64,000 nt of DNA from Geobacter sp. FeAm09. Its GTDB lineage: Bacteria > Desulfobacterota > Desulfuromonadia > Geobacterales > Pseudopelobacteraceae. Positions 4,051 to 57,428 of this stretch are shown here, piece after piece; the first letter of the stretch is position 1, and each line of letters opens with the position of its first letter. The DNA lies in the NCBI RefSeq assembly GCF_008330225.1, contig NZ_CP042466.1, positions 3,342,001 to 3,406,000 on the forward strand. The letters are read 5' to 3'. Position numbers and translations under genes: made by a program. The notes under the pieces are model-generated. The model saw only the letters and a list, made by a program, of their open reading frames with translations. It ran no database searches and was not told where the DNA came from.

Positions 4051-5490
4051 CTACTGTTTTCTCGCGCAATTTTTGCCGGAATGAATACGCTTGCTGAGCC
4101 CAGGCTGAGAGATGCCAAGCATTCTAGCGGCAAGTGTCTGGTTTCCACCTGCCCTGTCTAACGCCGCCTCAGTCAGAATATTCTCAACTTCCGCATAAGT
4201 AGGTAACCGCTGGGCGCCGAGAAACGCTTGAAGGATTAAATCCTCTCCCAGCACTGTGGTATCGGAACTGAATTCCATTTCCTGCCGCAGCTCGATGAGA
4301 TACTTGATCTCATCGACGGACAGCATCGTTTTATTGCGGCACACTTCATCAAAGACCATGGATCGCAGTTCACGGACGTTGCCCGGAAAAGTATAGCGAG
4401 ACAATAGGGCAAGGACTTGTTTTGGGATTCCCGGGGGATGTTTCATGCCGAACTCACGCGCCGCCTCTTTTACAAAATGTTCCAGTAGCAAAGGGATGTC
4501 TTCTTTACGTTCCCTGAGTGGCGGCACGTGTATATGATGGGTCTGCAGACGATAAAAAAGATCTTTCCTGAACTCTCCAGTTTGCTGTTTTTTCAATAAA
4601 TCATGATTGGTAGCCAGCACAAATCTTGCTTTTGTCCGCTTCAGTTGATCGCTGCCAACAGGATAATATTCCCCATCCTGCAAAAGCCTCAGCAGCTTAA
4701 CCTGTGATGCAGGGCTTAAATCTCCAATCTCATCCAGAAACAATATTGTTTCATCCGCTTGCTCGACAAGCCCTCTGCGAAAATCATCAGCACCGGTAAA
4801 GGCACCACGCTTATGACCAAACAGGGTATCGGCAAACATATTGTCATCAAGTCCCGCTATATTTACGGAGACCATTGGCATGTCATAGCAACATGCCTTG
4901 TGGAGAGCCTTTGCGATCAACTCTTTTCCTACTCCGCTCTCGCCAGTAATCAGCACAGGTTGCTTACCAACCGATATGGCTTCCATATACTGAAAAATTG
5001 AGAACATTTTCTTGCTTGTCGTCACAATATCCGCAAACGCTTCAGGCCTTTCCAACCGATCGGTCAGCAACCTGGTGCGCACATCCTGACTTTCCCTCTG
5101 TAACTCAATTATGCGAACAGCATGCAATATCCCCGTGATAACGCGATTTGTGTCACCGGCCTTCACATAATAATCGAATGCTCCAGCTTTCATACAGCGC
5201 ACGGCATCCTCAACCTGGTTTTGGCCGGTAATGACAATGACAAAAACCGATGGATAGGATTCTGAGATTGCCGAGAGAAGTTCTTCTCCCGAAATATGGG
5301 GCATCGTGAGATCGAGAAGAACGAGTCCGACCCCCTTCTGTCCTATGACATCCAATACTTGACGGCTATCTTGACACTGGATGATATTGTTGATGCCGCT
5401 CCCGTGAAGCGCCATGCTCAAAGAACGCAACCATGGCACTTCATCATCAACAAGCAAAACCGGGAAGTGGGGATAAAGACTTCTTGTCAT
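4051..5490 (-). CDS. Sigma-54-dependent response regulator (NtrC family)
   Basis: 479 residues in three domains. The receiver is at about 9-125, with VDDE and the phospho-acceptor Asp near 58 in LLDLTMPH. The AAA+ ATPase is at about 160-380, with Walker A GESGVGKE near 182, the sigma-54-contacting GAFTGA loop near 232 and Walker B LFLDEIGDL. A C-terminal Fis-type helix-turn-helix follows (QTLAARMLGISQPGLSKRI). It should activate sigma-54 RNA polymerase from upstream sites after phosphorylation by the kinase whose gene overlaps its start (ATGA). Two sigma-54-type promoters with a shared upstream motif lie within 11 kb, so those operons are its likely targets. Confidence 0.95.
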   Translation of the reverse strand: MTRSLYPHFPVLLVDDEVPWLRSLSMALHGSGINNIIQCQDSRQVLDVIGQKGVGLVLLDLTMPHISGEELLSAISESYPSVFVIVITGQNQVEDAVRCMKAGAFDYYVKAGDTNRVITGILHAVRIIELQRESQDVRTRLLTDRLERPEAFADIVTTSKKMFSIFQYMEAISVGKQPVLITGESGVGKELIAKALHKACCYDMPMVSVNIAGLDDNMFADTLFGHKRGAFTGADDFRRGLVEQADETILFLDEIGDLSPASQVKLLRLLQDGEYYPVGSDQLKRTKARFVLATNHDLLKKQQTGEFRKDLFYRLQTHHIHVPPLRERKEDIPLLLEHFVKEAAREFGMKHPPGIPKQVLALLSRYTFPGNVRELRSMVFDEVCRNKTMLSVDEIKYLIELRQEMEFSSDTTVLGEDLILQAFLGAQRLPTYAEVENILTEAALDRAGGNQTLAARMLGISQPGLSKRIHSGKNCARKQ

Positions 5491-7361
5491 GAGATGTCTC
5501 CGCTTTCATAAATCGGGAGTGACAAAATGGCTGTAGTGCCCTTTCCTACTGATGAATTTATGGTAAGGATTCCACCGTGGTCCTTGACGATCTTGCTGCT
5601 CACCGAGAGCCCAAGGCCTGTGCCCCCCTGTTCACGTTTTGTGGTATAAAAAGGATCGGCGATGTACTGGAGCTGATCTGAAGCAATGCCGACACCTTCA
5701 TCCGTGATTTCAAGTTCAGCCATCCGATGGTCATAATCATAACGGGTCATCACGGTAATGCTTCTATCGCGACCAGCAAGAGACTGGCAGGCATTCACTA
5801 TAAGATTGACAACAACTTGTTCAATGCGTTGCATATTGCCACGTATTTTAGGAATTTTCTCATCATAAGAGACAGAGAAAAAATCTGTCGATTGTTTGAT
5901 TGATGTTGAAATAAGCCGTATTGCCGACTTTGTAGCTGAATTGATATCAACTATTTCATTCAATTCTGAATTATCGCGTTTACTGAAATTTTTTAAATCT
6001 TCAACAATACGTCCTACGCGCTTTGAGGCATCGAGTGTTTCACTCAATAATTGTTCCAAGTTCTCCCTTACCTCGGAATATTGCCATTTTCCAACGATAA
6101 AATCGCCATCCTTAGCAAATTTATCCTCCATAATATGCCTTATGCTTTCGTACATATCGGACAGCATAGTCACATTCAAATAAATCAAACCATTAGGATT
6201 ATTGATTTCATGGGCCACGCCGGAAACGAGCGTACCAATGGCGGCCATCTTGCTTGCCTGTACCAGCTGCTCCTGGTTGCGGCGCAGCTCCTCCTCAGCC
6301 CGTTGACGCTCTTTTACCTCAAGAGAAAGTGCCGATGTGCGTTGTTCGACTTGCCTTTTCAGCATTGCGGACCAAACAAACGAGTGCAGGAGCCCGCCCA
6401 ACAGGAAGAAACCGACTATCGACCCTACCTTTATGACTCGCTTTAAAGGAATGCCGCGAGGCTCAAGTACACCGAGCCATTTATCGTGAATATCCTTATA
6501 TTGCCCCGTCTTTTTGAGAATCGCCATACCCGTTGCAAATCGTGCAAGCAGCTCGCGATTCCCTTTTTTAACGGCACTGCAGTACTCAATGACTTCTGAT
6601 ATTTCGTTAATAGGCTTAATACTGGCAAGCCCCAACTCCTGAGCGACGAATATTCCCGTCATTTTTGGAAAAAGCGCATAGTCGTAATGGCCTGAAGCCA
6701 GCAACCTCAGGCCATCGGCATAATTATCGACAAGCACGATGGAATTGCCGGTCAGCCCCTGTTCAATGGCATATTCGTGCAGCCTGCCACCCCGTAAGAT
6801 TATGACCTTTTTGTCTTTCAGCTCCTTAATCGACTTAACTTTAGGCGTCCCAGATCGACCGAACAGGGAAACGTTAATTATCGTATGAGGTGGAGAAAAA
6901 TCCATCAACTTTGTGCGTTCCTGCGTGTACCCCAACCCCATGAGGATATCGACTCTGCCCTGTTGGAGATCCTTCATTTTTTCGTGCCAGGGACCATACG
7001 AGAACTTTATGTCTAGACCCATCACTCTTGCAATTGCCCGATAGAGGTCAACATTATATCCGGTCAACTTCCCATTTTTATCGAGGAATTCATAGGGAGG
7101 GTAGTTAATATTGGCCCCGACAATAATAGTTTTGTTTTCTTGAACCAGATGTTCACCAGATGCATGGAGTTCTCCACAGCACGACAATGCAAGAAATATT
7201 ATTGCAATAGCTTGGCATATCGCCGGCTTTATCGAAGTACACATATTCTGCATTCTCGAAATTGGGGAAATATCTGGATATACAACTGAAATTGAGCAAA
7301 GGCGTGTGTTGATTGTGGATGACGGAATATTTTTGATAAAGTTGTAGTTCACCACCAGCAT
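5487..7361 (-). CDS. Sensor histidine kinase with periplasmic solute-binding (SBP_bac_3) domain
   Basis: 624 residues as drawn. The first 36 may be untranslated, because the signal peptide begins after Met37 (MQNMCTSIKP), but neither start has a good ribosome site. A type-3 solute-binding domain (about 75-300, NINYPPYEFLDKNGKLTGYN) is followed by one membrane segment, a coiled coil, the H-box VAHEINNP (His near 381) and an ATPase domain (NACQSL, GTGLGLSVSSKIV). This BvgS-like layout senses a small periplasmic ligand, often an amino acid or anion. It phosphorylates the regulator encoded just downstream with a 4-base overlap. The neighbouring selenium/sulfur operons suggest, but do not prove, a related ligand. 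Confidence 0.93.
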   Translation of the reverse strand: MLVVNYNFIKNIPSSTINTRLCSISVVYPDISPISRMQNMCTSIKPAICQAIAIIFLALSCCGELHASGEHLVQENKTIIVGANINYPPYEFLDKNGKLTGYNVDLYRAIARVMGLDIKFSYGPWHEKMKDLQQGRVDILMGLGYTQERTKLMDFSPPHTIINVSLFGRSGTPKVKSIKELKDKKVIILRGGRLHEYAIEQGLTGNSIVLVDNYADGLRLLASGHYDYALFPKMTGIFVAQELGLASIKPINEISEVIEYCSAVKKGNRELLARFATGMAILKKTGQYKDIHDKWLGVLEPRGIPLKRVIKVGSIVGFFLLGGLLHSFVWSAMLKRQVEQRTSALSLEVKERQRAEEELRRNQEQLVQASKMAAIGTLVSGVAHEINNPNGLIYLNVTMLSDMYESIRHIMEDKFAKDGDFIVGKWQYSEVRENLEQLLSETLDASKRVGRIVEDLKNFSKRDNSELNEIVDINSATKSAIRLISTSIKQSTDFFSVSYDEKIPKIRGNMQRIEQVVVNLIVNACQSLAGRDRSITVMTRYDYDHRMAELEITDEGVGIASDQLQYIADPFYTTKREQGGTGLGLSVSSKIVKDHGGILTINSSVGKGTTAILSLPIYESGDIS

Positions 7362-7739: not shown

Positions 7740-9494
7740 CTAATTTTCGATTAGCACCGAGACAGGCTTTGTTACGGTTGTGAATGTCGGCCAGATTTGC
7801 GACTGTTTTCCCGGGCCGCCCGTCACGACCAAGCGAACCTGTTCCGGCCCTGTAAACCGGGGAACCATGGTATTCGCGTCATAAGGCCCGAATTCCTTTG
7901 GTGGTTTACACAGATCAGGGGCATACATCCAGAACGGCAACACGGTCTTTTTTACAAGGTATTCCGAAGCTGATTTCTTTGTTTGAAATTCCTTATGGAT
8001 AGTGTCCGCATGTTCGGGCCCCAAAAAGAGGAAGGCAAACTTAACTTTGTTTGTTATATCATACCCTTTGTCGAAGTGCGTCAGGCAGCTCGTAATACCT
8101 GTTGCAGCGCCGGCCAAGCCAGCAGCCAGGGTATTAAGCAACTCCTGCGCCTTGACACTTGTATGGTCAACGTTGTTGCTTCCCATATAAGCCGAATAGG
8201 CAGTAACAACGTTGTCGGTAGGCTTGAAGCCTTGCTCGACCGCATAGGATTGTCCCCATGGGTTCTGCTTTTCGTTTTCGCCGATGACTACAGCTACCAG
8301 ATCGCCACGGCTGCCTTGCGAACTCTTGTCGATCGCAGGAGGAGTCGATCCGCCGACAACATCGCCGACCAGGTTGATAAAGTACCCAACGGCCACATTG
8401 ACCGGCTGTTCACCGCCAAGCACTCCGGTTGAATAACCTATGCGCAGCTTGTCAAGTATAGGTCCGTTAATGATGACCACCGGGTTTGTCGGCGCTGTGG
8501 TCGTAGTACTTCCTCTCCAGTCATAATCCGGATGGCTGAGGGCTTTGACGACAGCCAACAGTAACGGCATATGCTCTGGCTTGCAACCTGCCATCACGCC
8601 ATAAGCCGCCACAAGTTCTACGGTCAATTGCCCCATTCGTGGCGGCACAGCCCACACGACCTCATCAGGTTTGTGGGTCGTGCCTTTGAGCATTGCTGCA
8701 ACTTTTTCAGGTGTAGGTGGTATTATCGGCAAGCCTATCGACCAATGCTTGTCATAGAACATCTTGTTGAGCGCCTCATAGGTCCCCTTGAACTTGATCC
8801 GTTCAGCGGGATAAGGAGGCGTGAGATCTTGGGCAGTCGCGGCCAATGGCTTCCAATGTGTCGCCGCCTGCACAATTTTGGGGAATGCTTCATCGGCTTT
8901 GGCACGAATCTCTTCCAACGGGATCATGCCAAGAGGATGTGGCACTTCTACAAAGGCCATATCCGGAAGACCCGTGCTCTTTACGGTACCTTTTGCCAAC
9001 CCTACAAACTGATCGGATGCTATGGTTACAGTGGGAATACCTACTTTTTCTACTTGGGACTGGTCGACCACCAGCCATGAGGTGCACGACCCTCAATCGG
9101 CTTGGTTGCCGATCACAAGATCAGCATGCAGACCTTTTATAACCTTGGCTATGCGAGCCGACTCTTCCACTGACCCACTGATTTTTATGGTAGACGGATC
9201 AACTTCATAAAGCTTGATCACTTTGGCACTGGGGACATTCGCCTTTAAAAGCTCTGCAATCCTGTCCAGGAAATTGTTGCCATTATGCTTATTGTTCCAA
9301 CGCAGGACAATGGTCTTTCCCTCAAGCGTGGTGATCCGCGGGGCAAGCTGTGCCGGTTTGACCTCAACCACCCCAGCGGGATTCAGGAACTCCCATTCCT
9401 GCACTGCCTCCTTGGCAACCGCCGACGATGGCACGAACGAACTCGCGCCGATGGCAAGCGCCGCCAGAAAGGATACTACTGATCGTTGTCGCAT
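7740..9494 (-). CDS. UGSC-family selenoprotein (Sec134, in-frame UGA)
   Basis: Read as one 584-residue protein with UGA at 9093-9095 decoded as selenocysteine: GNQAD-U-GSCTSWLVVDQ, the namesake U-G-S-C motif of this family. The frame is continuous across the UGA, and residues on both sides belong to the same conserved domain. A SECIS-type hairpin starts 16 bases after the UGA. The start has GGAGGAAAG. An N-terminal signal peptide (ends near AVAKEA) places it in the periplasm. The UGSC domain spans roughly 40-230; the C-terminal half is a second conserved domain of unknown function (GLPIIPPTPEKVAAML, GDVVGGSTPP). Last gene of operon B, 63 bases after another putative selenoprotein. The U-x-x-C redox motif suggests thiol/selenol chemistry; the substrate is unknown. 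Plain gene callers would split or truncate it. Confidence 0.9.
9058..9076 (-). promoter_or_regulatory. Bacterial SECIS-like hairpin in the UGSC gene
   Basis: GGCTGGT (9076-9070) pairs with ACCAGTC (9064-9058), 7 bp with one G-U pair, around the loop GGUCG. The loop begins 23 bases after the UGA. A short stem, a loop starting with G and this spacing are what SelB-binding bacterial SECIS elements show. Confidence 0.75.
9093..9095 (-). other. Selenocysteine UGA codon of the UGSC protein
   Basis: In-frame TGA between Asp133 and Gly135, exactly where UGSC-family proteins carry Sec or Cys. Confidence 0.88.
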
Positions 9495-9557
9495 ACTCTC
9501 TTTCCTCCTTGTGTGATGTCCCTTACGGGATGTGATATGTGGTACTGCTTTCTATTT

Positions 9558-10283
9558 TCACTCTTCGCTTTTTCCGGTAACCATGATTGCCACGCCGCCC
9601 TTGGGGGCATTCCTGGCATTCGACTCGATCAGGATGACGTCTTTAAGGGCTCCCGGCTTGGAAGGGGTATATTCGATCTCCATACTTTGCGTTTTGCCGG
9701 CTGCGACAATGGCATCACCCTGCTTGGCGCCATCGAAATACATCGTCGAGCCGCCTTTCAGAAAAATTTTCTTGACGGCAAGCGGCAGTTCTCCGGTATT
9801 CGAGAGCGTCAGCTTCAGCTTCTTTGAAACCCCCTGCTTCATGCTGCCGACGTCCAGCTTGCGCGGCGATACCGTAAGTTTGGCACCGGGCGCTTCCTTC
9901 ACCGTGCCGGTCATGACCGCTTCTATCTGCTGCGGTTCGGGAATGTCCACGTCTATCGTCACGATTTTCTCAAACGGGCCTGGCGCCCCCTTCGTGGCAA
10001 ACGTCACCTTCAGCTCAGTTTTTTCTCCAGCCTTCAGTGTGTGCTTTCCAAGCACACTTTCCGTGCATGCTCAATTGGTTTTGACGCTGCTGACATGAAC
10101 ATCCCTGCCGCTGACGTTCTCGACCACAGCCGTCATGGTTGCCGGCACCCCCTCATCCACCAGGCCGCAATCATGCTGCTTCGGCTGGATGTGCAGCACG
10201 TCCGCAGCAAACACCGGGCTTGCCGCCGCCAGCGTGGTCAGGGCAAACAACAGGCAGCATGCCTTCTTCAAATAATCACCCAT
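9558..10283 (-). CDS. DUF1573-domain selenoprotein (Sec71, in-frame UGA)
   Basis: Read as 241 residues with UGA 10071-10073 as selenocysteine: VKTN-U-ACTESVLGKHTL. DUF1573 proteins usually have a C-G-C-T motif at this place, so U replaces the first Cys (U-A-C-T). The frame is continuous and both halves are recognisable DUF1573 / Ig-like sequence (second repeat KLTVSPRKLDVGSMKQGVSKKLKL). A signal peptide ends near PVFAADV. GGAGG lies 11 bases before ATG 10283, inside the end of the cytochrome gene, which stops 3 bases upstream. A perfect 8-bp SECIS-like hairpin follows the UGA. Probably a periplasmic redox or chaperone-like protein; the role is unknown. Confidence 0.85.
10039..10057 (-). promoter_or_regulatory. 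Bacterial SECIS-like hairpin in the DUF1573 gene
   Basis: GTGTGCTT (10057-10050) and AAGCACAC (10046-10039) pair perfectly around the loop GGA, whose first base lies 21 bases after the UGA. Size, spacing and a loop opening with GG match the element in the next gene. Confidence 0.75.
10071..10073 (-). other. Selenocysteine UGA codon of the DUF1573 protein
   Basis: In-frame TGA aligned with the conserved first cysteine of the DUF1573 C-x-C-T motif, with continuous family sequence on both sides. Confidence 0.82.
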
Positions 10284-10286
10284 GCT

Positions 10287-10766
10287 CTACTTGCCTCCTT
10301 TCTTGGCTGCTCCATGTACCAGCAGCTTTTTGTTGTGAAAATCAAACTTTGGGTCCTGCCCCTTTGTATGGCATTCCCGGCACGTATCCTCGCCGGGGCG
10401 GGCAACGAGGCCCTTTTTGCTGTCGGGATTGGCGGCGTGGGCTGCCGCGGCGCCGTGACAGACTTCGCACTGGACGCCGGCAAGGTGGGGAGTCAGTTCC
10501 CCATCCATAAAGCCGCCCTCTTTTTCAAAACCGGTGACATGACACTTCAGGCAATGGCCGAGTGTCTCCTGATGCTTCTTTTGCAGCGTGGCAAAAGCCT
10601 TGGCGTGGCGCGTCGTCTTCCAACCGGCCACAAGTTCTTCATGGCAACCGGCACAGGTTTCCACGCCGGCATATTCGTCTGCTGCAGGCTGCGAATAACC
10701 CGATTGTGCATGAACCGCCATTGCCAGCAGGAATGCCGCCGTCAAACATGCTGCTCTCTTGACCAT
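10287..10766 (-). CDS. Periplasmic tetrahaem cytochrome c (c554-like)
   Basis: 159 residues from ATG 10766, chosen because GGAG lies 13 bases upstream and the signal peptide (VKRAACLTAAFLLAMAVHAQ) follows directly. Four CxxCH haem sites are visible: CAGCH, CLKCH, CEVCH, CRECH. Spacing and length fit small cytochromes of the c554/multihaem type. It would carry electrons in the periplasm. It stands between the rhodanese gene (34 bases) and the DUF1573 selenoprotein gene (3 bases), so electron delivery to the seleno/rhodanese proteins is a reasonable inference. Confidence 0.9.
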   Translation of the reverse strand: MVKRAACLTAAFLLAMAVHAQSGYSQPAADEYAGVETCAGCHEELVAGWKTTRHAKAFATLQKKHQETLGHCLKCHVTGFEKEGGFMDGELTPHLAGVQCEVCHGAAAAHAANPDSKKGLVARPGEDTCRECHTKGQDPKFDFHNKKLLVHGAAKKGGK

Positions 10767-10800
10767 AACGTTAATGCTCCTTATTCGAGTGGGTACCTGG

Positions 10801-11226
10801 CTACTTTCCGCCTTCAAGCGGATAGCCCAATTTTTTCCAGCCCCTGATGGCGGGGTTGAGCAGTATCTTTACATCGGGAAACCCCAGACCGAGCAGCTGG
10901 AAAGCCAAGTCAGAACTGTCGGTTTCCCCCGGCCCGCAGTCACAGTAAGTGACTACCAGTTTATCCTTCGGTATTTCACTCACATCAGAATCCGTTAGAT
11001 CTGCCTTCCAAGGAAATGAGATGGCTCCTTTAATATGACCGGCGTCATAAATGGATTTGAGCTGAGCATCCAGAATGACAACGTCTACCTTTTTGTCGAT
11101 CAGGGTTTTCAACTCATCAATGGTGATCCGTGGTATGTCGGGATGCCCCGCAAACGCCACCGGCACACCGAGCGCGCAAAGCAGCCCGAAAACCACTAAC
11201 AACACAGTTACCAACCTCCGCTTCAT
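10801..11226 (-). CDS. Periplasmic single-domain rhodanese
   Basis: 141 residues from ATG 11226, with GGGAGG 9 bases upstream; a longer frame exists but lacks a ribosome site. Signal peptide MKRRLVTVLLVVFGLLCALGV... ends near AFAGHP. The rhodanese domain covers residues 25-135 (VDVVILDAQLKSIYDAGHIKGA). Its active loop YCDCGPGETD has two cysteines rather than the usual single C-x4-R loop. Rhodaneses carry sulfane sulfur, and can carry selenium as a perselenide, on this Cys. First gene of operon B behind a -24/-12 promoter. Confidence 0.9.
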   Translation of the reverse strand: MKRRLVTVLLVVFGLLCALGVPVAFAGHPDIPRITIDELKTLIDKKVDVVILDAQLKSIYDAGHIKGAISFPWKADLTDSDVSEIPKDKLVVTYCDCGPGETDSSDLAFQLLGLGFPDVKILLNPAIRGWKKLGYPLEGGK

Positions 11227-11689: not shown

Positions 11690-12265
11690 TTAGATGCGCA
11701 GCACCGGCCTTGCCGAGAGGAGAGTTTCCGCGATCATAAGCATGTTGGTAGTGCTGCCCGCTTTCAGTTTGTCCTTGAGCCTGAAAAAATCCAGACAAAG
11801 GCCGCAGGAGAGGACTTCTACGCCCATACCCGCCAGTTTTTCCAAGGCCTCCAGCACCTCTGACCCTTCAGTGGTGAGCAGCACGCCGGTGTTGACAAAA
11901 AACATCTGGGAGGGGAGGTTGTCCAGCTCAAGCAGGGTGTGAATAAAATTCCGCATCAGCAATCGCCCCAACTCCTCAGGGCCGTCTCCCAGGCGATCGG
12001 ATGTGATCAGCAGTATACGTTCGCTGTCGGCAAGGTTTCCGAACGGCCTCTGACTTTGCCCACTGGCGTGAATGGTCAGCGCCCACGCATCATCGGCGCG
12101 CTCCTCATGGATCTGGCATCCCCGATTATGGGCAAAACGGGTGACATTTTCGCGTGGAGCACCGTCATCCAGCACAACCCGCAGCTCCGTCAGCGTCTCC
12201 AGGGCCTTCTTGACCTTAATGACCGGGGCAGGACAGGCCAGATTCCTGCAATCAATGGTAATCAT
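11690..12265 (-). CDS. yedF: Selenium metabolism protein YedF
   Basis: 191 residues from ATG 12265, which overlaps the DUF3343 stop codon (ATGA). The N-terminal TusA/SirA-like domain has the persulfide or perselenide motif (IDCRNLACPAPVIKVKKAL, CPxP near residue 10). The C-terminal DsrE-like domain (about 95-191) has conserved cysteines in SCGLCLDFF. This architecture defines the YedF family found in selenium-using bacteria. It is thought to move selenium or sulfur between carriers, though its reaction is not settled. Its place beside DUF3343, rhodaneses and two selenoproteins supports a selenium-handling role here. Confidence 0.92.
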   Translation of the reverse strand: MITIDCRNLACPAPVIKVKKALETLTELRVVLDDGAPRENVTRFAHNRGCQIHEERADDAWALTIHASGQSQRPFGNLADSERILLITSDRLGDGPEELGRLLMRNFIHTLLELDNLPSQMFFVNTGVLLTTEGSEVLEALEKLAGMGVEVLSCGLCLDFFRLKDKLKAGSTTNMLMIAETLLSARPVLRI

Positions 12266-12564
12266 GCACCAACTCCTCGCGTGCCATGGTTGATAATGCC
12301 CGCTTCGCACTCATAGACCGTAACAAAACGGCCGCCCCTGAACTCGCTCGCAAAGGCCGGCAAGAGCTTTTCCTGCCGCAGGACCTGCATTACCTGCTCC
12401 GTGGCATCGGCTCCGAAACGCAAGGCCAGCCCACAATCAGTCTGAAGCTGGCGAGGGGCCGGGACAAGCAGAATCGTCAGGCCGAGGGCCTTGAGAATGC
12501 CCTCGGCCTTCATTACGCGGTGACTGGAATTGAACACCGCCAACACATGTCCTTCTCGTACCAT
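12262..12564 (-). CDS. DUF3343 putative Se/S carrier-like protein
   Basis: 100 residues, a full-length member of the small DUF3343 family (MVREGHVLAVFNSSHRVMKAEGILKAL). It has a conserved Cys in QTDCGLALRF and another near the C-terminus. Family members recur beside yedF and selenium genes and are regarded as Se/S carrier-like; no reaction is proven. The stop codon overlaps the yedF start by 4 bases, so the two are translationally coupled. The start has only a weak ribosome site. The gene lies 59 bases after the outer-membrane barrel gene. Confidence 0.88.
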   Translation of the reverse strand: MVREGHVLAVFNSSHRVMKAEGILKALGLTILLVPAPRQLQTDCGLALRFGADATEQVMQVLRQEKLLPAFASEFRGGRFVTVYECEAGIINHGTRGVGA

Positions 12565-37453: not shown

Positions 37454-37518
37454 TTCTTTCAGCGACGCCCCGCTCCTCGCCAGCCAGTGCCGGCGAAAGG
37501 CGGCGCTTGCGGTACTTG

Positions 37519-37550
37519 AACCCCCTTGCTCTCCGGCAAAGGGGTTTTTT
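37519..37550 (+). terminator. Terminator of the relaxase gene
   Basis: 11-bp stem with one mismatch (37519-37529 / 37536-37546) running into six T. Confidence 0.85.
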
Positions 37551-37582
37551 CATTTTCTTGCCTGAAAAATTTTCCATCCCCC

Positions 37583-37612
37583 CTTTGGTTTTACCCCGCA
37601 AACCCGCTTTCT
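37583..37612 (+). promoter_or_regulatory. Island promoter, copy d
   Basis: CTTTGGTTTT (37583-37592), 11 bases, CCGCTTTCT (37604-37612); ends 50 bases before ATG 37663. Confidence 0.7.
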
Positions 37613-37662
37613 TATGTATCGGTTCAATTCCAGAACCACTACGTCAACAGAGGAGAAACGCC

Positions 37663-37842
37663 ATGCAGAAAACCGCAATAATCATCAAGACCGTCTTAGC
37701 TGCCTTAGCCATCTCAACCGTTGTCCTGGCCGGATGGTGGAAAGTGTCAAAGCCAAAGCCTCTGGCAATGGCCGACGGCAAGACTGCGGTGGCCAATATC
37801 ACCGTGATCGCGGGTGGTCCCGAAAAATCCGGAAAGGAGTGA
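37663..37842 (+). CDS. Small single-helix membrane protein
   Basis: 59 residues from ATG 37663 (AGAGGAG upstream). One N-terminal hydrophobic helix (AIIIKTVLAALAISTVVLAGWW) is followed by a short polar tail. It could be an anchored peptide or a lipid-free exported product. No family recognised. It is followed 3 bases later by the next gene. Confidence 0.55.
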   Translation: MQKTAIIIKTVLAALAISTVVLAGWWKVSKPKPLAMADGKTAVANITVIAGGPEKSGKE

Positions 37843-37845
37843 GCT

Positions 37846-38178
37846 ATGAGTGCTCACAAAAACCGATCCCCCGGGGGCCTGAATCCCCTGGCGCTGGTGC
37901 GGGAACACAGCCACATCCTCGGCCAAGTGCTCGAAGAGACGCTCAGAGACCTGGCGATGGCTGGGCGGCCCACCTCGCCGGCGGAAATCCGCCAGACGGT
38001 CGATGAGCGATATGGTCCCGCACTGGCGTACCTGATCGCCGAAAGCCTGGCGTGCCCGCTTCTCCGGCAATCCGTTGAAACCGCCGCAGCTATACGACCT
38101 TACCCGCACCGTCAACAGGCTTTTCCCCACGGCTTTCCCCATGGCCTGTTGACACGCCGCTTTGGTTTTTGGTCGTAA
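37846..38178 (+). CDS. Hypothetical soluble helical protein
   Basis: 110 residues. Helical N-terminal two thirds (ALVREHSHILGQVLEETLRDLA, SPAEIRQTVDERYGPALAYLI) and a His/Pro-rich end. The last codons overlap the -35 block of promoter copy e, so the C-terminus is constrained by that promoter. AAAGGAG precedes the start. No family recognised. Confidence 0.55.
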   Translation: MSAHKNRSPGGLNPLALVREHSHILGQVLEETLRDLAMAGRPTSPAEIRQTVDERYGPALAYLIAESLACPLLRQSVETAAAIRPYPHRQQAFPHGFPHGLLTRRFGFWS

Positions 38179-54879: not shown

Positions 54880-54965
54880 CCCTCACCCGGCCTTTGGCCA
54901 CCCTCTCCCGGAGGGAGAGGGTAACGGTATCCCTTCTCCCTTTGGGAGAAGGAGAGGATGAGGGG
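54880..54965. repeat. Palindromic CCCTCTCCC-type intergenic repeat
   Basis: Two adjacent hairpins, CCCTCTCCCGGAGGGAGAGGG (54901-54921) and CTTCTCCCTTTGGGAGAAG (54935-54953), set in CCCTCACCC-rich DNA. This kind of repeat is scattered between genes in many proteobacteria and may end transcription of the MFS operon. Confidence 0.65.
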
Positions 54966-55034
54966 CGCTACGCCGCACGAAAGGGCGTTCGAGGATGAGG
55001 GCCTGATGGCTGTTTTTCAACAACCTCATCGGAT

Positions 55035-56270
55035 TTAAGCCTCTGCCGCCCGCTGGTCCCCGGCCACGGTACGGCCGGCCAAAAGCGCAAAGAGCGCCGC
55101 GACCAGGATGGCCGCCGGGGTGGTCAGGAGTGCGGCCGCCAGCCCCCACACATCGGAAAGGGCGCCGATGATGGCGGGGGAGACGGCGTCCCCCAGGGCA
55201 TGGATGGTGAAGATCGTAATGGCGAACCCCGTGGCGCGCCGGTTGGGCGCCACGACGTTGACCAGCACGGTGTTGAGCGGGCCGGTGTTGAGAAACAGGA
55301 ACAGTTCGGCGGCAAAGATGGCGGCCAGACAGAGCGGCAGGGAATGGGAGAGGATGGCCAGGGCGGCCAGGGGCGCGCCCAGGAGGAAGCCGGCGGCGGA
55401 GACGTGCAGGTAGCCGGCGGCGCTGCGGCGTTGCAGGCGGTCCCCCAGCCAGCCCCCCGCCAGGGTCCCGACGATGCCGGCCACCACGGTCAGCATGCCG
55501 AACAGGGTGTTGCCCCGGGCCACGTCCAGGCTGAAACTGCGGTGGAGGAACGAGGGGACCCACTGGGCCAGCCCCCCCAGGGCAAAGGTCATGGCCGCCA
55601 TGGAGAGGGTGGCGTGCACGAAGGTGCGGTTGGCGGCGAAGCTGCGCAGCACGGCGGCCAGCCCCTCGCCCGCCGGAGATTCGTCCGGCGTCGCGCGCCC
55701 CCGGCGCGGCTCGGCCAGGAACCATAGCGGCGCGGCCAGGGCAAGTCCCGGCAGGCCGACCAGCATGAAAGCCCGGCGCCAGCCGAAGGCCTGCCCCAGG
55801 GACCCGCCCAGGATATAGCCCAGGGCGCTCCCCACCGGGATCGCCAGGAAAAAGAGCGACAGCATCCTCCCCCGGCGCTCCCGGGGGAAGAAATCGGCCA
55901 CCAGCCCCGGCGAGACGGTGCCGAAGCTCGCCTCGCCCATGCCCACCAGCGAGCGGGCCGCCAGAAGCAGGCGATAGGAGGGGGCCCACCCCGAGAGCAT
56001 GGTGGCCAGGCTCCAGGCGAAAAGGCCGCCGGCGGCCAGGCGGTTGCGGTTGCAGCGGTCCCCCAGCCGGCCGAAGAACGGCGCGGCCACCATGTAGCAG
56101 AGCATGAAGGCGCTGCCCAAGAGACCCAGGGCGGTGTCGGAGAGGCGCAGATCCGCCTTGATCAGGGAGAAAACGGCGTACAGGGCCTGGCGGTCCACGT
56201 AGTTCAGGAGGTTCACCGCCAAAAGCAGTGCCAGGGCATACCGGCCCCGGCGGCCGACGGCATCACTCAC
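55035..56270 (-). CDS. MFS transporter (Spinster-like)
   Basis: 411 residues, about 12 membrane helices. Family motif A is seen between helices 2 and 3 (GRLGDRCNRNRLAAGG), and the N-terminus LLAVNLLNYVDRQALYAVF is typical of Spinster/hexuronate-type MFS carriers. Substrate unknown. Overlaps the DUF4911 gene by 8 bases and ends the arnD-like operon. Confidence 0.88.
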   Translation of the reverse strand: MSDAVGRRGRYALALLLAVNLLNYVDRQALYAVFSLIKADLRLSDTALGLLGSAFMLCYMVAAPFFGRLGDRCNRNRLAAGGLFAWSLATMLSGWAPSYRLLLAARSLVGMGEASFGTVSPGLVADFFPRERRGRMLSLFFLAIPVGSALGYILGGSLGQAFGWRRAFMLVGLPGLALAAPLWFLAEPRRGRATPDESPAGEGLAAVLRSFAANRTFVHATLSMAAMTFALGGLAQWVPSFLHRSFSLDVARGNTLFGMLTVVAGIVGTLAGGWLGDRLQRRSAAGYLHVSAAGFLLGAPLAALAILSHSLPLCLAAIFAAELFLFLNTGPLNTVLVNVVAPNRRATGFAITIFTIHALGDAVSPAIIGALSDVWGLAAALLTTPAAILVAALFALLAGRTVAGDQRAAEA

Positions 56271-56526
56271 CCTCCTGCTCCCAGGAGACCGGCGTCATGG
56301 TCACCCTCCTCCCCAGTTCGGCCAGCAGGTCGTCCATCTCAGCCACGAAGCCGGGCATGACGGCAATGCGGATGATGCCGGCCACATTGTCCACCGTGCT
56401 CATGGTGTTCGTCCCCTCGTAGGCCTCCAGAATGAACTTGAGGTAGACCATGTCCCGGTGCTTCACCCGGAAATAACGGCAGACGGCGTCGGACAGGGGG
56501 ACGGGGGGAGGGGCTTGGCACGCCAT
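56263..56526 (-). CDS. DUF4911 domain protein
   Basis: 87 residues from ATG 56526, overlapping the upstream stop (TGATG). The DUF4911 pattern is RYFRVKHRDMVYLKFILEAYEGTNTMSTVD, then a C-terminal amphipathic half. Small, soluble, unknown function; common as a short gene in Geobacter-type genomes. Coupled to both neighbours by overlap. Confidence 0.8.
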   Translation of the reverse strand: MACQAPPPVPLSDAVCRYFRVKHRDMVYLKFILEAYEGTNTMSTVDNVAGIIRIAVMPGFVAEMDDLLAELGRRVTMTPVSWEQEGE

Positions 56527-57428
56527 CACGGGACCTCTTCCCCCTGGATGGCCACCCGGCCCGCCCGGCCCGGAAGCTCGCCCATGAAGAGCCGGCATGC
56601 CGGCGCGCCGGAAACCCGGCCGGCGGCCTCCCCCAGGGTGACGCAGCGGATGCCCGCTGCCGCGAACCCCTCCAGCAGGCGGACAAAGGAGGCGCGGATG
56701 GCGCCCCCCTCCAGTTCGGCGTGGATGGTCAGCACGTTGAGCCCGTCCCGCAACTGCCCCAGGTAATAGTCGTGGATGTTGTCCGGGGTGATGCCGTGCT
56801 CCCCCAGGATCTCGTCGGCGGTCGGCAGGGTGGTGGGGATCTGGAGGGTGCGGAAACGGCGCCCTTCCATGACCGGGTAGAAGGGGCGGGTGCCCCGGCC
56901 GTCGCTGCAATAGCTCAGCCCCATGGCGTCCTGCACCTCCAGGGAATCGGGCGACACGGTCCAGCCGGGGGCCGCCGTGGTGGCGGCGCGATGCCCCAGG
57001 ATCTCCTCGAACCGGGCGCCGGCCAGCCCCAGCTCCATGGCGGTGAGGTGCTTGGGGAACCAGGGGAGGTAGTCGTGCCATTTGACATGGTCCCAGCAGT
57101 GGATGCCCACCTCGTGGCCGCGCCGCTCCGTCTCGCGCAGCACGTCGGGAAAGGCCGCCCCGATCATGGGTGCCGGCAGGAGCGTGCCGTAGAGCATGGT
57201 CTTGATGCCGTAGGCCGCCGGCGCCTTGGTGCGCAGCATCTTCTTGAGGAACCCCTTGCGGGTGAAGATCCGCCGGATGGCCTTGCCCGAATTGTCCGGC
57301 CCCAGGGAGAAATAGAAGGTGGCCGCGACCCCGAAGCGGGCCATGTCCTCCAGCAGGGCCGGCACGCCGTCGCGCGTCCCGGCATAGGTATCCACATCCA
57401 CCTTCAAAGCAACGATCTTGTCAGCCAT
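56526..57428 (-). CDS. ArnD-like polysaccharide deacetylase
   Basis: 300 residues from ATG 57428. NodB-fold motifs: VALKVDVDTYAG (motif 1 Asp), HEVGIHCWDHVKWHD (motif 2 His residues) and LTIHAELEGG near the end. Length and sequence fit ArnD, which deformylates undecaprenyl-phosphate-L-Ara4FN in lipid A modification. No other arn genes are next to it, so a related deacetylase role cannot be excluded. First gene of a three-gene operon with DUF4911 and the MFS carrier. Confidence 0.82.
   Translation of the reverse strand: MADKIVALKVDVDTYAGTRDGVPALLEDMARFGVAATFYFSLGPDNSGKAIRRIFTRKGFLKKMLRTKAPAAYGIKTMLYGTLLPAPMIGAAFPDVLRETERRGHEVGIHCWDHVKWHDYLPWFPKHLTAMELGLAGARFEEILGHRAATTAAPGWTVSPDSLEVQDAMGLSYCSDGRGTRPFYPVMEGRRFRTLQIPTTLPTADEILGEHGITPDNIHDYYLGQLRDGLNVLTIHAELEGGAIRASFVRLLEGFAAAGIRCVTLGEAAGRVSGAPACRLFMGELPGRAGRVAIQGEEVP

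Follow-up and report, generated by a model that had tools for sequence, protein, structure and literature searches.

An in-frame UGA divides a gene of the DUF1573 family in Geobacter sp. FeAm09, and the question raised by this locus is whether the codon terminates a short protein or is decoded as selenocysteine within a longer one. In the window (the whole stretch of 64,000 nucleotides that was analysed), the gene occupies positions 9558-10283 on the minus strand, and its frame runs from an ATG at 10283 to a stop at 9558-9560, the TGA at 10071-10073 being the sole internal stop in the translation. Read through this one TGA, the gene encodes 241 residues, as stated in the first-pass annotation, and the product scores 90 bits with PF07610 (DUF1573) if Cys is entered for the TGA, the Pfam gathering cut-off being 26.1. 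The putative selenocysteine is residue 71, at the first position of U-A-C-T (...KTN-U-A-C-T...). The first-pass annotation had placed it where other family members have C-G-C-T, and both the translation and the alignment column support this placement. The interval given there, 10039-10283, contains the part of the gene ahead of the TGA and the hairpin behind it, but the gene itself is longer and extends to 9558. The conserved UGA, a covarying hairpin, selection on the coding frame ahead of and behind the codon, the presence of the decoding machinery and a conserved gene cluster lead us to put the probability that UGA 10071-10073 is decoded as selenocysteine, making the product a selenoprotein, at about 94%.

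Conservation of the UGA codon and of the hairpin behind it

The critical column was inspected in an alignment of 60 proteins including that of the window, composed of 30 loci kept from the 52 matches listed in a search of the order and of 30 from the matches listed in the OS_HP2 search of the phylum. It contains 29 U, 31 Cys and no other residue, and the second Cys of the C-x-C motif is present in all 60 proteins. All 59 aligned relatives have either Cys or UGA, so that the other sense codons named in the first-pass annotation as evidence against recoding were not seen. A sub-family with U-A-C-T was found in seven genomes representing several families (the genome of the window, G115, G457, G186, L120, G553 and G546), and the TGA is retained in all of them.

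Comparison with G115, a genome of the same genus (80% identity), yielded dN 0.10 and dS 1.36 for the frame behind the TGA, the substitutions being distributed over the three codon positions as 21, 12 and 81 (81 of 114 at the third), while dN was 0.12 and dS 0.65 for the frame ahead of it. The low dN versus dS on both sides of the TGA indicates that the coding frame is under purifying selection. These results bear on the alternative that the TGA is a real stop, leaving either a pseudogene or a short protein of 70 residues with an independently initiated reading frame behind it. A GTG at 10055 could indeed serve as the start of such a frame, which would comprise 165 residues (9558-10055). However, the residues encoded between the TGA and this GTG show conservation from genome to genome, and both the C-x-C motif and the DUF1573 domain extend across the TGA. 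The selection on either side, the retention of the TGA across families and the covariation of the hairpin likewise argue against termination, which we consider highly improbable.

According to the bacterial SECIS model in the legend of Fig. 2 of PMC13188914, the loop has 3-9 nt with a G in its first two positions, the stem has 4-16 bp, and the same source places the loop 16-37 nt after the UGA, with an energy of at most -7.5 kcal/mol. The hairpin of the DUF1573 gene (10039-10057, minus strand) agrees with all of this: the perfect 8-bp stem and the 3-nt loop GGA, both recognized in the first-pass annotation, were recovered, the loop lies 21 nt past the TGA, and the energy in the window is -9.1 kcal/mol. 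The isolated hairpins of G457 and G553, with -7.2 kcal/mol, fall just short of the energy limit of the model. The distance had been described as the same as in the neighbouring UGSC gene, which is only roughly true, the UGSC value being 22 nt, or 23 nt in the folded form.

All seven sub-family genomes have an equivalent stem 13 nt past the TGA. In their alignment, 96.4% of the cells are paired, compensatory changes on both sides occur at four of the eight stem pairs (1 of 500 shuffles was as high), the covariation score was reached in none of 500 shuffles, slid versions of the stem were worse on each of these three measures, and RNAalifold predicts the identical hairpin. There was no excess of further pair types in the stem (334 of 500 shuffles were as high, and two slid versions exceeded it). 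The top pair is absent from two of the seven sequences, whose loop has 5 nt. At the codon level, the seven comparable hairpin codons are all identical to those of G115, versus 111 of 190 gene-wide, and conservation this high was reached by 2 of 184 seven-codon windows. Judged within its 50-nt context, the hairpin does not stand out: 13 of 200 shuffles reached its stability (z-score -1.87). An Rfam scan of 8500-10400 yielded two chance matches of no relevance and no family that marks the hairpin.

A six-frame scan of the window for frames bridged by a TGA (at least 25 residues on each side and 110 in all) with a SECIS-like hairpin of at least 6 pairs behind it returned six candidates, the DUF1573 and UGSC genes among them. 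This yield, which includes both neighbouring genes, suggests that the combination of TGA and hairpin in the DUF1573 gene is more than chance. The four other candidates, at 54883-57081 (minus), 55124-55585 (minus), 37507-38178 (plus) and 9486-10847 (plus), are probably due to chance; the last is antisense to the DUF1573 gene.

A genome devoid of selenocysteine machinery would have spoken against recoding, as pointed out in the first-pass annotation. The machinery is present and complete, with tRNA-Sec, selB, selA and selD all over their cut-offs: two tRNA-Sec genes (79.5 and 75.7 bits), two selB, one selA (612.5 bits) and one selD (359.7 bits, C1:870435-871358), which has one TGA inside.

Relation to the known DUF1573 selenoproteins

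Selenocysteine in DUF1573 is already known and is common in the phylum. The first-pass annotation, which was not aware of DUF1573 as a well-described selenoprotein family, was wrong in this respect: Table 2 of PMC2398784 (2008) contains OS_HP2, a pfam07610 family with the motif UxC, for which ocean samples had yielded 2 Sec and 354 Cys sequences, and a DUF1573 selenoprotein with the motif UGC appears in the reviews PMC9312934 and PMC13188914. OS_HP2 matches over the cut-off occur in 44 of 395 genomes of the phylum, and one in-frame TGA was found in 42 of 52 such matches, among the matches listed.

The window protein and OS_HP2 (NF041425) have in common the DUF1573 domain, Sec for the first Cys of C-x-C and hosts in the same phylum. 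It would thus be conceivable that the window protein simply is an OS_HP2 member whose motif has changed by one residue. Its Sec shares the alignment column with the U of 27 OS_HP2 rows, the published motif UxC (PMC2398784, Table 2) covers U-A-C, and L072, a Cys row that belongs to the OS_HP2 matches, likewise has C-A-C. However, it reaches 42.2 bits with the NCBIfam model of OS_HP2, whose cut-off is 100, the motif is U-G-C-T in OS_HP2 and U-A-C-T in the window branch, and the loop past the motif differs in length by one residue. The neighbourhoods also differ: the window branch is clustered with cytochrome, rhodanese and UGSC genes, whereas no cytochrome gene lies alongside the 30 OS_HP2 loci within flanks of at most 1.5 kb. 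The extension of the cytochrome/rhodanese synteny to OS_HP2 at large was considered and is not supported, as these flanks contain a rhodanese gene at 5 of the 30 loci and a cytochrome gene at none.

In a tree of 63 rows, in which U was entered as X and the Sec column was left in, five U-A-C-T proteins were included and form a clade of their own (SH-aLRT 99), apart from the clade of the 30 OS_HP2 rows (99). The grouping of the two against the 28 Cys rows has a support of only 26. Forcing the 32 U rows into one clade was marginally rejected (p-AU 0.03), which may be driven by the three Cys rows among OS_HP2, and two changes of state between Sec and Cys are required on the tree. The U-A-C-T row of G186 has a long branch. 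On balance, simple membership in OS_HP2 appears rather unlikely to us, and the window protein seems to belong to a new, distinct branch of DUF1573 selenoproteins characterized by U-A-C-T, as judged from motif, tree and gene context.

The gene cluster, extra decoding genes and their distribution

The DUF1573 gene is the third of four genes on the minus strand, which in downstream direction encode a rhodanese-domain protein, a cytochrome c554-like protein, the DUF1573 protein and a UGSC protein. The rhodanese gene (10801-11226; PF00581, 1.8e-10) contains the motif YCDCGPGE. The cytochrome gene (10287-10766; PF13435, 8.3e-19) stops 3 nt short of the start codon of DUF1573 and encodes four CXXCH motifs, a number found in all five cytochrome proteins counted. 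Both were compared with known families: the cytochrome scores 129.7 bits with UshA_like_PCGU (NF041198), far below the cut-off of 275, and the rhodanese 54.6 bits with rhodanese_LYCAU (NF041203), far below the cut-off of 115, and neither gene has a TGA in the window.

The neighbouring gene at 7740-9494, translated through one TGA, encodes 584 residues and belongs to the UGSC family, with 127.7 bits for NF041046 (cut-off 125), 130.4 bits for PF24696 (cut-off 25) and the UGA at the motif. This TGA (9093-9095, putative selenocysteine 134), which the first-pass annotation had taken as independent support for recoding, was kept in all four genomes in which the gene was read, and the scan and folding place a SECIS-like hairpin at 9058-9076. 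The UGSC family and a UGSC/Unknown_1 fusion have already been published (PMC2398784); the UGSC protein of the window with its C-terminal extension is comparable to this fusion, and the extension is assumed to be Unknown_1. The fold model of the UGSC protein was poor (mean pLDDT 38.8) and unusable. In G115, L120 and G457, a separate gene akin to the C-terminal part of UGSC comes next; no such gene was found in the window, where the query matches the UGSC gene alone.

The cluster is conserved in other families of the phylum. The cytochrome gene adjoins the DUF1573 gene in all seven sub-family genomes, and the rhodanese gene adjoins the cytochrome gene in six. The full set of four genes is present in the window's genome (G000), G115 and G457, and also in L120, a Syntrophaceae metagenome-assembled genome in which UGSC lies ahead of the rhodanese gene. 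G553 has the rhodanese, cytochrome and DUF1573 genes and part of a UGSC-like gene, G546 has the same three genes on a short flank that ends soon past them, and in G186 the cytochrome and DUF1573 genes were found, but neither rhodanese nor UGSC in the 17.9 kb read. A partial literature search, which left out the selenoprotein-neighbourhood paper of Haft and Tolstoy (2025), yielded no published report of the pairing of UGSC with a Sec-containing DUF1573 protein, nor a description of the conserved cluster with this branch.

Several genes in the surroundings deserve mention in their own right. Upstream of the cluster, without implied membership in it, lies a gene for a YedF-like selenium-metabolism protein with a TusA domain (11690-12310, minus; TIGR03527, 211.6 bits, cut-off 110), and its upstream neighbour, a small open reading frame at 12262-12564 (minus), appears to resemble the DUF3343 partner frequently found beside YedF. 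The stretch 4054-7361 (minus) contains genes for a putative response regulator of the sigma-54 type and for a putative sensor kinase, part of which is similar to periplasmic binding proteins; the pair adjoins the cluster in the window's genome and in G115, and similar proteins are encoded near the G186 genes.

The extra tRNA-Sec gene and the second, diverged selB are located at C1:3339800-3341893, just left of the window and about 10-12 kb from the DUF1573 gene. This selB has a frameshift at a run of eight C near its end, which may reflect either genuine decay or a sequencing error; the equivalent in G115 is intact. In a selB tree it pairs with the cluster-near selB of G115 (99) and, less firmly, with the second selB of G117 (92), and the group is apart from the main selB of G000, G115, G117 and G114. 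Two selB matches occur in 4 of 76 genomes of the family (G000, G115, G117 and G108). A general tie of the second selB to the cluster was rejected, as the 40 kb read around the second selB of G117, a third genome of the genus, contain no cluster genes. G115 has three tRNA-Sec matches. In G118 (L114), a distance of about 2.5 kb separates two tRNA-Sec genes of the same strand, the second of which lies directly ahead of a selB match. Genomes with several tRNA-Sec genes have already been described (PMC5330540).

The distribution of the U-A-C-T sub-family is patchy. In the window's order, 2 of 141 genomes have it (including the window's genome), and in the phylum sample, searched at E <= 1e-16, 3 of 395 (including the genome searched around). 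In the order of G457 it was found in 3 of 46 genomes (including G457), the same three being returned by another search of these 46, and in the order of G186 in 1 of 5 (including G186). A scan of GTDB contigs with the DUF1573 core domain gave one relative; with the whole two-row alignment it gave none, the patterns having fallen in the signal peptide. No relative was found on plasmids, and the absence of a relative from the viral contigs says little, as the pattern was of the signal-peptide type. The window protein is 55% identical to that of the Syntrophaceae record, but within its own order its identity to the next relatives is about 30%, and from this difference together with the patchiness we infer that the sub-family and its cluster may have spread by horizontal transfer; loss in many lineages may explain the patchiness as well.

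Possible roles of the encoded proteins

The N-terminus of the DUF1573 protein looks like a signal peptide in our reading of the sequence, and the protein is probably exported. Two beta-sandwich (Ig-like) domains are predicted, with the motif in a loop past a strand that ends at residue 69; the model was computed from a two-row alignment, and the best of five had a mean pLDDT of 74.4, the other four 44-55. Its structural matches, Ig-like repeats from axoneme proteins of cilia and sperm and a single uncharacterized protein from Porphyromonas, speak to the fold only and not to function.

In the reading favoured here, the ordinary bacterial machinery of SelA, SelB, SelD and tRNA-Sec decodes UGA 10071-10073, directed by the hairpin at 10039-10057. 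Disulfide exchange is an activity that C-x-C, especially in the form C-G-C, can confer on a protein, and a pair that starts with Sec is expected to react faster. It is possible to envisage that the selenol would form a reversible selenenylsulfide with the Cys of U-A-C, and that the protein would shuttle electrons or sulfane sulfur between rhodanese/UGSC and the cytochrome in the periplasm, the cargo being suggested by the conserved tetrahaem cytochrome and rhodanese partners. Such a redox-relay role, proposed from the motif and the neighbours, has in our estimation slightly better than even odds, and the proposal that sulfur compounds are the substrate of the relay is tentative.

Alternatively, the product might be a selenoprotein whose U-x-C serves to bind or transfer a metal or metalloid (copper, mercury or arsenic) without redox cycling. 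Many proteins use a C-x-C pair to bind soft metals. Some other selenoprotein families carry metal-handling names (PMC13188914). Nevertheless, none of the neighbours that are retained, cytochrome c, rhodanese and UGSC, received a metal-handling name when these genes were searched against families, and metal binding in place of a redox relay is regarded as unlikely. A more far-reaching extension of the redox-relay proposal, that the four genes constitute a self-contained, horizontally moving, selenium-dependent redox pathway of the periplasm and that the tRNA-Sec and selB genes about 10 kb away in this genus were once its own decoding set, is a speculation to which we give a low probability.

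Ordinary annotation would split the DUF1573 gene in two, and the score with the OS_HP2 model is far under the cut-off; both make it likely that this branch is missed. The literature covered, as far as it was available, gives no function for DUF1573 or UGSC. The retention of two putative selenoproteins together with a cytochrome and a rhodanese would offer a testable handle on the function of both families.
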